Assembly: GCA_030831135.1 (NCBI GenBank)
Contig: JAURLR010000097.1
Span: 1-10,726, forward strand
Length of the DNA: 10,726 nt
From: Alphaproteobacteria bacterium
GTDB lineage: Bacteria; Pseudomonadota; Alphaproteobacteria; UBA6615
Direction: 5' to 3'
The position numbers and the translations under genes were made by a program. The notes beneath the pieces were generated by a model, which saw nothing but the letters and a program-made list of their open reading frames with translations, was not told the origin of the DNA and ran no database searches. Below, in pieces: positions 2,790 to 9,021 of this stretch; within the stretch, counting starts at the first letter, position 1; each line of letters opens with the position of its first letter.

Positions 2790-3074
2790 TCAGGCCGGGG
2801 CCATCCAGTGTTCGTAGATTTCGATTTCCAGCGTGTCTTCGGGCGCGCCCTCATAGTCGGGCCAGAGTTCGCCCTGCTTGAAGTTCACGCGGTACAACAT
2901 TTTGTAGGGCAGCCCGGAATGTCCGTAGGCCAGTGTTTCGGGGTTGGGGAAGGATCCAACGATACGCTCGATCACGCCGGTTTTCCCGCGAACATAGATC
3001 GGGGTCCGCACATGCCCGGGCTGATTGCGCTGGAGAATACGAACCTTGTCGCCTGGTTTGTATCTAGACTCCAT
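2790..3074 (-). CDS. Nitrile hydratase beta C-terminal domain as a separate subunit (ScnA-like)
   Basis: I use the ATG at 3074 (MESRYKPGDKV), giving 94 residues. A reading from 3122 would add 16 residues lying entirely inside the preceding gene. The protein is a complete SH3-like beta-barrel domain of the kind that ends the nitrile hydratase beta subunit: YKPGDKVRIL, then PGHVRTPIYVRGKTGVIE, then LYRVNFKQGELW, then a closing strand near YEHW. The Arg in GHVR matches the conserved beta-subunit Arg that contacts the oxidised cysteines of alpha. It overlaps the beta N-terminal gene by 11 bases in another frame (ATGGAGTCTAG), so the two halves are translated as separate polypeptides. This equals the alpha subunit of thiocyanate hydrolase, or one of the two small subunits of the toyocamycin-type three-subunit nitrile hydratase. 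Confidence 0.88.
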   Translation of the reverse strand: MESRYKPGDKVRILQRNQPGHVRTPIYVRGKTGVIERIVGSFPNPETLAYGHSGLPYKMLYRVNFKQGELWPDYEGAPEDTLEIEIYEHWMAPA

Positions 3075-3390
3075 CGCGCGCAGCCTCCAGACGCGCGCGA
3101 ACCTCAGCCTGTTTGGCGTCAAGCTCTTCCTGCGTGAACACAGCCTTTTCGAGCATCAGCCAGGAAACCGCCTGCAGCCAGCGCTCGTAATAGGGATATT
3201 TGTGATAATCCTCGCCAAGGGATTCCTGCATCCGCCGGGACTCATCGACACGTGCCAATTGCCGACGCTGATCGAAAATCAGCATCATCAGGGCATCGAC
3301 GGTTTTTTCCCAATGGGTCGGCACATGTTCGTGCGTTACCGGATCAACCGGCCCCGCATCCAGGCCGCCGTAATCTTGTGGACCGCGCAT
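3064..3390 (-). CDS. Nitrile hydratase beta N-terminal domain as a separate subunit (ScnB-like)
   Basis: I place the start at the ATG at 3390 (MRGPQDYGGLDAG), with GAGGTG five bases upstream. A TTG at 3405 is less likely. The 108-residue product matches the helical N-terminal part of nitrile hydratase beta: an opening GGLDAGPV stretch, THWEKTVDALMMLI, and the helix YPYYERWLQAVSWLMLEKAVFTQEEL, where Arg of YERW fits the second conserved beta Arg near the metal site. The C-terminal half is the next gene, overlapping by 11 bases. Nitrile hydratase activator proteins (P14K/P15K) share this fold, so an activator role is an alternative. The GG motif near the start, and a beta C-terminal domain directly after it, favour a structural subunit. 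It is the first gene of the minus-strand block, and its promoter should lie in 3391-3557. Confidence 0.85.
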   Translation of the reverse strand: MRGPQDYGGLDAGPVDPVTHEHVPTHWEKTVDALMMLIFDQRRQLARVDESRRMQESLGEDYHKYPYYERWLQAVSWLMLEKAVFTQEELDAKQAEVRARLEAARDGV

Positions 3391-3557
3391 TTTCACCTCT
3401 ATCAATTCACAGAGAGATTTTTAGCGCATATCGTCCTCATATCAAGAAGTTCATGGCAAAATTGACCCCTTGCCCCCAATTGGATCGATTCCTTCAGTAA
3501 TCTTCAACGTTTTGAAGGTTGAATCCGTTCAGACAAGCGGATGACGGGATAATTTTG
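3391..3557. other. Divergent intergenic region with short palindromes
   Basis: About 167 bases separate the start of the hydratase operon (minus) from the amber-interrupted gene (plus), so it must hold both promoters. The sequence is more AT-rich than its surroundings. Visible elements are TTGACC at 3462-3467 (a possible plus-strand -35 box with no convincing -10), the palindrome CCAATTGG at 3476-3483, and an inverted repeat at 3502-3517. The ribosome binding site for the hydratase operon (GAGGTG on the minus strand) lies at the left edge. I cannot assign either promoter with confidence. Confidence 0.5.
3502..3517. repeat. Perfect inverted repeat, 6-bp arms with 4-bp spacer
   Basis: CTTCAA and TTGAAG flank CGTT. 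The centre AACGTT is itself palindromic. It sits 41 bases upstream of the likely ATG of the plus-strand hypothetical gene and within the divergent promoter region, so it may be an operator or a leader hairpin. There is no U-tract suitable for a terminator. A chance repeat is possible. Confidence 0.35.
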
Positions 3558-4466
3558 ATGTCAATGGACCGGCAACAACTGGCACGCGCGATTGATGTGG
3601 GTCGCACGTCAACGCTCAACTGTTTCGAGACAACCAAGGATATCGCGGGGATCGCGGCGGATATTGCCGATGACGATCCGCGCGGTCCGATGTTCCGGAA
3701 CCACTTTCTGAACGATTCCATCGTGTTCAAGGTCGTGGAATCCACCGTCGTGCGCGGCAAGCGCAACTATGGCGTCGAGACCCTGATCTACTTTCCCTAC
3801 AACCACGAAAACATCTACGAGGGCGGCGATTCAATCCTCGTCAGTGACCGGCGCCGCGCGGAAAAACTGCATCACAAATGCGGACTTGATCCCAATGACG
3901 AAAGCCGGGCCGCGGATTACGACTGGGACAACTCCATGCTGGAGATGGTGGACACCCTCCCCACGCTCGACCCCTTCCTGATGAAGTGCAAAGCCCAGCA
4001 GACCGGTATCGAGGATCAGCTCAACCCGGCCTATTTCAACATCACGCTCGAAGAGTGGAACCGAATCCAGAAACCTATCCGGCTCAAGATCGAGGCGCTG
4101 GTGCGCAAGGCCCTGGGGCTGGGGCGCGAGGATGCCGGAGCGAAGATCGAGGAACATGTTTCCAAATTCCTGAAGAAAATCTGGGAAGCCCGCGATATCG
4201 ACGGCATCGAGGACTTCGTGCACAGCATGGATATGCCGCCCGAGCGCGCGCCAGAGCTGTTCTTCGCGTGGAAGGCCATTTGCTATTATCAGGTGCAGTT
4301 CACTGAGGTAGAGCCATCCTTGCGCAAGCTCTTTGCCTGGGTCGGAGATCCCAAGAAGTCCCTTCCCGCCGATATGGGCGGACTGCGTTATGAGGTTCAG
4401 GATCAGATCCGGCGGGAACTGAAGATGCTCCGCGCGCGTCTGCGTGAAAACTATCTGAACATTTAG
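3558..4466 (+). CDS. Unknown conserved-looking protein, truncated by an in-frame amber codon
   Basis: From the ATG at 3558 (MSMDRQQLARAI) this encodes 302 residues before TAG at 4464-4466; a TTG at 3519 or a second ATG at 3564 are alternative starts. I do not recognise the family. The product is soluble, with no signal peptide or membrane helix, and is acidic and helical in its second half, with aromatic-rich patches (VETLIYFPYNHENIYEGGD, LFFAWKAICYYQVQF). The last visible part (IRRELKMLRARLRENYLNI) looks like an amphipathic helix that continues smoothly past the stop codon into ETLKNYEESYRQFIEDG. The natural product is therefore probably about 393 residues, with TAG at codon 303. The cause could be a recent nonsense mutation (CAG to TAG needs one change), a sequencing error, or readthrough. 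It is divergent from the hydratase operon; no functional link is evident. Confidence 0.7.
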   Translation: MSMDRQQLARAIDVGRTSTLNCFETTKDIAGIAADIADDDPRGPMFRNHFLNDSIVFKVVESTVVRGKRNYGVETLIYFPYNHENIYEGGDSILVSDRRRAEKLHHKCGLDPNDESRAADYDWDNSMLEMVDTLPTLDPFLMKCKAQQTGIEDQLNPAYFNITLEEWNRIQKPIRLKIEALVRKALGLGREDAGAKIEEHVSKFLKKIWEARDIDGIEDFVHSMDMPPERAPELFFAWKAICYYQVQFTEVEPSLRKLFAWVGDPKKSLPADMGGLRYEVQDQIRRELKMLRARLRENYLNI

Positions 4467-8342: not shown

Positions 8343-8352
8343 AAGAGGAGCC

Positions 8353-9021
8353 ATGACCACGATGCCGCATTTACCTGTCGTTACTGATGATGAGGCCGGC
8401 CCGGAGGCCAAAGTCCTGTTTGCGCATTCCACGCGAATGTTCGGTCGGGTCGCCAATGCCGTCCGCACCGTGGCGCATTCCCCGAAACTCGCCCAGTCCA
8501 TTTTCGGCTTTCTGGTTGCCGCCTTGCGAGAGGAAGTGACGGGCATTCTCGATGTGAGAACCAAGGCGCTGGTCATCCTGAAGACATCCATGCTGAACGG
8601 ATGCAAGTACTGAACCGGTCACAACGTAACGCTCGGTCGAGGGTTGGGTTTTGACGACGAACTGATTGCTGCCATCGAAGGCGATTATCTTAATACAGAT
8701 CTTTTCACGCCTGCAGAAAAAGCGGCGATGAAATGGGCCGAAGTGCTTACGGAAAAGACCTATCGAGGAGAAAATCCCGATGCGATGCCGGAACTGAAGA
8801 AGCATTTCGATTCCGCGCAAATTGCCGAAATCACCATGGTCTCGTGTTTCTTCAATTTCTGGAACCGTCTGGTAGACGGCTTGCAGGTGGATATCGAGGA
8901 AGACGACGTCATGGGCCGTTTCACCAAGTCAAAGTCCATCGACCCCAAGGACTATGTCGCGTTCATGTGCGATTGCTGGTGGAACAAACCCGGTGCGGGG
9001 ACCGCGCAGAATCCCGAGTAA
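8353..9021 (+). CDS. Carboxymuconolactone decarboxylase/AhpD-family selenoprotein (CxxU)
   Basis: Automatic callers would split this gene at TGA 8611-8613. Read through in frame it gives 222 residues, with Sec at position 87 in NGC84-K-Y-U87-T-G-H90-N. Homologues of this fold have the thiol pair CxxC followed two residues later by His (NGCxYCxxHN). UGA therefore falls exactly on the resolving/peroxidatic Cys codon, and similarity continues without a gap (VTLGRGLGFDDEL). Neither half alone is a viable protein. A SECIS-like hairpin follows at 8618-8655. The start is ATG 8353, with AAGAGGAG just upstream; ATG 8362 is an alternative. The fold is all-helical and usually oligomeric; the CxxU site suggests peroxide or disulfide reductase chemistry rather than decarboxylation. 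The C-terminus carries CDCWW. AhpD-like CxxU selenoproteins have been noted in metagenomic surveys. The genome must also encode SelA, SelB, SelD and tRNA-Sec, which are not in this window. Confidence 0.88.
8618..8655 (+). promoter_or_regulatory. Bacterial SECIS element (selenocysteine insertion hairpin)
   Basis: Starting four bases after the UGA, the mRNA can fold into one long hairpin. From the base up: GUCA/UGAC, C-U mismatch, AAC/GUU, G-G mismatch, UAAC/GUUG, G-G mismatch, CUC/GAG, and the apical tetraloop GGUC at 8635-8638. That is 14 pairs with only symmetric single mismatches. The loop opens with G and lies 21 bases after the UGA, both within the rules for bacterial SelB-binding hairpins (G among the first loop bases, loop about 16-37 bases away). 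It lies inside the coding frame, as in other bacterial selenoprotein genes. Confidence 0.75.

Follow-up and report, generated by a model that had tools for sequence, protein, structure and literature searches.

The gene and its surroundings

The window, as the whole analysed stretch of 10,726 nucleotides is called here, is contig C24 of a 2.38-Mb assembly with 389 contigs and a completeness of 84.57 %. Its forward strand carries at 8353..9021 a CMD/AhpD-family gene, a putative selenoprotein gene read through one UGA codon into a product of 222 aa. The UGA codon lies at 8611..8613 (forward strand) and is placed by alignment with homologues at residue 87 of the read-through motif N-G-C84-K-Y-U87-T-G-H90-N91. 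Cys84, the first residue of the CxxU motif, is encoded at 8602..8604 on the same strand and was invariant in the 120 listed homologues. Beyond the UGA codon the frame stays open to a TAA at 9019-9021. ORF calling with table 11 divided the gene into a piece of 86 aa (8353-8613) and one of 125 aa (8644-9021). A first-pass annotation of this DNA had described a TGA in place of the second Cys of a CxxC motif, a frame continuing without shift to position 9021 and a standard annotation in two fragments, and all of this was confirmed, with a Cys at this position in 116 of the 120 listed homologues. The read-through product matched PF02627 with 40.2 bits (cut-off 23), which assigns it to the CMD/AhpD-like superfamily. 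Translation perhaps starts at the ATG at 8362 instead of 8353, since the first Met of the five loci from a genome-contig scan aligned with residue 4 of the 222-aa product. The read-through frame of the annotated 222-residue product stands, while its length may be 219 aa. A possible ribosome-binding site, AAGAGGAG, is located at 8343..8350 (forward strand), just 5' of both candidate ATGs.

The gene is flanked by a glutaminyl-tRNA synthetase gene upstream and an AtzH-like gene downstream. None of seven other window proteins that were tested had a match at 24 homologue loci (16 distinct places, limited flanks), and a Pfam scan of six neighbours in the window showed no AhpC. The gene neighbourhood offers no clue to the substrate. 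The remainder of the window includes a nitrile hydratase alpha chain gene (PF02979, 2098-2766, minus strand), further minus-strand frames at 2790-3405 and a 315-aa frame at 3519-4466 on the plus strand that gave no Pfam match at E ≤0.001.

Codon 87 in homologues and the hairpin downstream

The genome-contig scan retrieved five loci of relatives, 56-78 % identical, and every one had a stop at codon 87; four of these loci are on contigs also present in the genome set of relatives, as judged from length and match position. Some match at E ≤0.001 was obtained in 82 of the 142 relatives searched. Among the loci fetched at E ≤1e-4, TGA was present in 13 distinct pieces and a Cys codon in 24. Among rows of more than 50 % identity that were distinct over codons 70-129, codon 87 was TGA in ten (the window included) and TGC or TGT in six, the TGA rows originating from the genera g1, g2, g5 and g7 of one family and from one further named record. 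The protein database contained 219 homologues, and in the 120 of them that were listed C84, H90 and N91 were invariant (120/120), residue 87 being Cys in 116 and Trp in four. These four proteins (P0002, P0003, P0053 and P0061) probably represent a UGA rendered as Trp by gene calling under another table. A protein alignment (A3) combined P0001 with 48 of the 120 listed homologues. A tree computed by a quick method with residue 87 masked, and accompanied by warnings of long branches, contained 95 rows drawn from the loci and from part of the 120 listed proteins. It united 14 close Sec-type rows in one group with an SH-aLRT of 96, the four Trp proteins being counted as Sec by inference. Two Sec/Cys changes are needed on this tree, the second in a distant paralogue pair (the second gene of L018, and L033).

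Six of 385 genomes matched at E ≤1e-60 in a class-wide search, viral contigs contained no relative of the window gene, and all 361 records of a plasmid search were below 60 % identity. Distant AhpD-type matches of 32-38 % identity occurred in the genomes G009, G015, G019, G021, G022 and G023, with one TGA somewhere in each. Another distant CMD relative, L047 (G089:C1:4443532-4444044; 29.5 % identity, from another family), has UGA at the catalytic codon followed by a 7-bp hairpin with a GUU loop, and its genome carries selB. Roughly 0.6 kb separates two divergent AhpD-type genes of locus L018, 1756-2400 (minus strand) and 3001-3645 (plus strand); each has UGA as its catalytic codon and a GGUC hairpin.

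In bacteria, a SECIS element is a stem-loop immediately downstream of the UGA codon with a small apical loop containing a G, according to the accessible text of PMC1088965. Such a structure follows the UGA codon of the window gene: the core hairpin of the predicted SECIS extends over 8628..8645 on the forward strand, with the stem 8628-8634/8639-8645, one G-G mismatch in the stem and the loop GGUC at 8635-8638. The hairpin starts 14 nt past the UGA, so that the loop occupies nt 22-25 after it. For comparisons between loci, identical pieces were entered once. The SECIS alignment (A1) took in nine close and two distant UGA pieces, all distinct ones except L047 (29.5 % identity) and L115 (11 of 13). 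All 11 aligned pieces shared the 7-pair GGUC hairpin at a constant distance from the UGA. Among the 13 distinct UGA pieces, 11 showed GGUC at the loop positions, compared with a single one (L027) among the 24 Cys pieces. The exceptions on the UGA side are the distant L047 and L115, which form 7-bp hairpins whose loops at nt 20-23 read GUU and GGC, respectively. Conserved Gly-Arg codons in part dictate the loop sequence GGU-C.

The clearest evidence for the SECIS element is the synonymous coding constraint. Synonymous codon identity among the Sec forms was 305/379 (0.805) over codons 92-100 versus 2470/5644 (0.438) outside codons 88-100, and codons 92-100 ranked highest of 164 nine-codon windows. 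The six Cys forms had the reverse pattern, with 29/97 (0.299) over the same codons versus 798/1501 (0.532) elsewhere. Drawn at random and non-contiguously, 20,000 sets of nine codons included none that reached the observed synonymous identity; this test used nine sequences, homologues of more than 50 % identity that were distinct over codons 70-129, with L024 omitted as a near-copy of L023. A longer structure of 15 pairs was also examined: 81.2 % of its cells paired versus at most 48.5 % when the partners were slid. The covariation score, the percentage paired and the doubly changed cells were reached by 0 of 500 shuffles, the four doubly changed pairs by 29 of 500 and the pair types by 271 of 500, counts that kinship can inflate. 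In the inner stem, 8 of 11 sequences oppose G to G at the fourth pair, and outer pairs were not formed in up to 7 of 11. By folding energy the window hairpin alone was unremarkable (z -1.30), 17 of 200 shuffles folding equally well, and an Rfam scan of the window returned no match.

Trained on the ten other aligned pieces, with the window excluded, a covariance model (R2) scored the window at 69.6 bits, and Cys loci at 22.5 bits or less across the 20 sources searched; its five top matches were the window and four members of the training set. The model that included the window sequence (R1) found no second match below E 1 in the own genome. Its next match, at E 1.19, falls within a Cys paralogue, and R1 overlooked both other CxxU genes of this genome, thus it has to be regarded as clade-specific.

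Selenocysteine machinery and alternative readings of the UGA codon

The genome encodes SelA (555.9 bits, cut-off 267.9) and SelB (462.4 bits, cut-off 242.25) by adjacent genes on contig C109, which has 3545 bases and ends about 0.4 kb past selB. For selC, no tRNA-Sec over the cut-off was found in the own assembly, where 150 of 412 candidates were scored; selD was likewise not found in this 84.57 % complete assembly. The presence of the Sec machinery, named by the first-pass annotation as a point to verify, is borne out for selA and selB. The best tRNA-Sec candidate, on C224 with 39.6 bits, turned out to be a tRNA-Ser. Two SelD candidates were rejected as well, one on C155 with 48.7 bits (cut-off 125; sharing 29 % identity with a stretch of SelD from a relative) and one on C62 with 29.7 bits against the same cut-off.

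Among 23 genomes searched, 11 had a tRNA-Sec candidate of at least 64 bits, ten a selD over the cut-off and ten both. The two genes were 1.2-1.3 kb apart in nine of these ten (G001, G003, G004, G005, G006, G008, G009, G011 and G013), and G012 contained both in another arrangement. Because selC and selD are neighbours in nine of ten relatives, a single missing stretch could explain the absence of both. Four of the five searched relatives of the same genus had both genes; the fifth, G002 (about 89 % complete), had selB and neither selC nor selD. Assemblies may break at the tRNA-Sec gene, since two contigs of the same G003 assembly, C46 and C177, begin with it, the gene lying at most 15 bases from the first base of each. 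The gene selB was present in all seven other searched genomes with a close Sec form (G006, G009, G011, G014, G017, G018 and G023). It does not discriminate between the forms, since it also occurred in G001, G003 and G004, relatives of the same genus in which only the Cys form was found. At 739-851 codons, the open frames that contain the selD matches of relatives (L092-L101) are more than double the length of the 311-position model and point to a fused protein.

Two readings dispense with selenocysteine. An assembly error or a pseudogene, in which a former Cys gene would have acquired a stop at 8611 by mutation, has in its favour that selC and selD were not found in the own assembly and that nonsense codons do occur there: a Cys paralogue of the window gene (C73:776-1405; L051/L104) has TGC at the catalytic position and a TGA and a TAG at non-catalytic places. 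However, the identical TGA stands at the Cys codon in separate assemblies of four genera, on which ground decay or a sequencing error was rejected. The frame downstream is conserved, the codons of the hairpin are under synonymous constraint, and the homologous frames of relatives, in which decay was looked for, run on without it. This reading is very improbable for the window gene. The C73 paralogue itself is either a decaying copy or affected by assembly errors; its counterparts are open in the same-genus genomes G003 and G004 and split over two frames in G001. A reassignment of UGA to Trp or another standard residue in this lineage would agree with the Trp at position 87 in four of the 120 listed homologues, but the other 116 have Cys there, and selA and selB are present. 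Three of the 12 other main frames of the window terminate at TGA, including the one for the nitrile hydratase alpha chain; the absence of internal TGA in the other window frames is given by construction. Furthermore, the glutaminyl-tRNA synthetase (584 aa) and SelB (640 aa) fit their families nearly over the full length without internal TGA. Hence a reassigned codon is hardly credible.

The UGA at 8611-8613 is very probably a selenocysteine codon, and the interrupted CMD gene very probably encodes a functioning selenium-containing redox enzyme. Selenocysteine in a CMD/AhpD-family gene, the central proposal of the first-pass annotation, receives strong support from the recurrence of UGA, the hairpin and selA/selB. 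The SelB of this genome would bind the hairpin beginning 14 nt after the UGA and deliver Sec-tRNA(Sec) made with SelA, so that Sec would be inserted at residue 87 in place of termination. This assumes that selC and selD are missing merely from the assembly and are part of the genome.

Active site and relation to known families

Cys84 and Sec87 would form a CxxU redox pair beside the invariant His90. By analogy to the CxxC enzymes of the AhpD/CMD type, Sec87 would most likely attack a substrate that is oxidised or electrophilic, such as a peroxide or a different two-electron acceptor. Cys84 would then resolve the intermediate to a selenenylsulfide, and a cellular thiol would reduce it. The protein is best read as a thiol peroxidase or disulfide reductase working through a selenol. 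Taken as a whole, a CMD-fold redox selenoenzyme with SelB-dependent Sec at position 87, attack by Sec and resolution by Cys84, is a proposal in which we have high confidence.

The closest solved structures by sequence include PA0269 (PDB 2ijc, 2o4d) and the debrominase Bmp8 (6ohi), both with the CxxC motif at the same place and a Cys where the window protein has Sec. In AhpD, a Glu and the His at +4 function as a proton relay. This classical pattern, with the spacing taken from 2ijc (the Glu precedes the first Cys by 12 residues, the His follows the second at +4), is absent from the window protein, which has Ala (residue 72) and Asn at these positions. Glu at residue 72 occurred in none of the 120 listed homologues, and all 120 had His at +3 and Asn at +4 after residue 87. 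Bmp8, with the motif CxxCxxH, also has its His at +3. Deiodinases use Sec in a reaction comparable to dehalogenation, which presumably is the chemistry of Bmp8. A selenoenzyme other than a peroxidase, either reductive dehalogenase-like or another thiol-dependent reductase in the manner of Bmp8, would be in line with the shared +3 His and with the wider span of the family profile matched by Bmp8 (positions 11-188 of 217, E 1.6e-12). Four PDB sequences score above Bmp8, though these better-scoring chains cover only about 60-176 of the profile, and the neighbouring genes give no hint of a halogenated substrate, so that we regard such an activity as rather unlikely. The bolder version, an undescribed clade of CMD selenoenzymes with no Glu, His at +3 and an attacking Sec that would catalyse a reductive reaction on a substrate other than peroxide, e.g., a dehalogenation like that of Bmp8 or deiodinases, is improbable too.

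The first-pass annotation had called the CMD family rarely known as selenoproteins. This was mistaken, for CxxU members were reported in 2005 and 2008. The accessible part of the 2005 report (PMC1088965) counts 27 AhpD-like CxxU sequences and four with a CMD domain, with predicted SECIS elements, and applies a stem-loop criterion, the small apical loop containing G, that agrees with the hairpin described above. That of the 2008 report (PMC2398784) gives 299 CxxU sequences for AhpD-like 1 and 70 for AhpD-like 2 (pfam02627); going by such excerpts, CxxU AhpD-like and CMD proteins are frequent in ocean data. AhpD-like, CMD-like and AhpD-related CxxU families are also listed in the accessible sections of PMC9312934 and PMC13188914. 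As described there, the CxxU AhpD-like proteins (COG2128; AhpD-like 1 of the ocean survey) share with the window protein Sec at the second position of CxxC, a predicted SECIS and many Cys homologues, and the CMD-domain selenoproteins (PF02627; AhpD-like 2), compared by description, share PF02627 and CxxU.

The best NCBIfam match of the window protein was TIGR01926, below the cut-off (54 vs 81.8 bits), which was reached by none of five scanned Cys homologues either; an excerpt of a 2026 review places the CxxU AhpD-like selenoproteins under this model. Second came NF053654 (GroundWater_YciW, YciW-related (seleno)protein), where 50 bits were obtained and the cut-off lies at 310. NF041238 (AhpD_rel_CFYUT, alkylhydroperoxidase-related (seleno)protein) has CxxU in an AhpD-type domain, as in the window, but reached only 20.3 bits (cut-off 175) with the C-terminal part of its 357-position model. 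Modestly new is a clade below every NCBIfam cut-off that lacks the Glu and the +4 His of 2ijc. Such a clade is easily missed, since table-11 calling halves the gene and no NCBIfam model reaches its cut-off; no title found in the open-licence literature names it. The Sec clade can be set beside its Cys sister forms, to which a paralogue from this genome belongs, as a natural pair for asking what selenium contributes.

A search of the own genome with PF02627 yielded ten matches, three with an in-frame TGA: the window gene and one gene each on C262 and C251. The second CxxU gene, L116 (C262, 1168-2259, minus strand), encodes 364 aa with the motif CFYUT and scored 341.5 bits with NF041238 (cut-off 175) and 21.5 bits with PF02627, just below the cut-off. 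Folding revealed no clear SECIS for it, a hairpin with a CAUG loop being located near the UGA. The accessible part of a 2006 survey (PMC1794560) names FdhA as the sole selenoprotein of the Sec-decoding Alphaproteobacteria examined. The one genome studied here, with relatives that bear the label Alphaproteobacteria, carries at least three AhpD-type genes with CxxU. The third of them, L115 (C251, 1258-1875, minus strand), encodes 206 aa with the motif CSYU. Its protein had no NCBIfam model at cut-off and matched PF02627 with 25.2 bits, and a 7-bp hairpin with a GGC loop follows its UGA codon.
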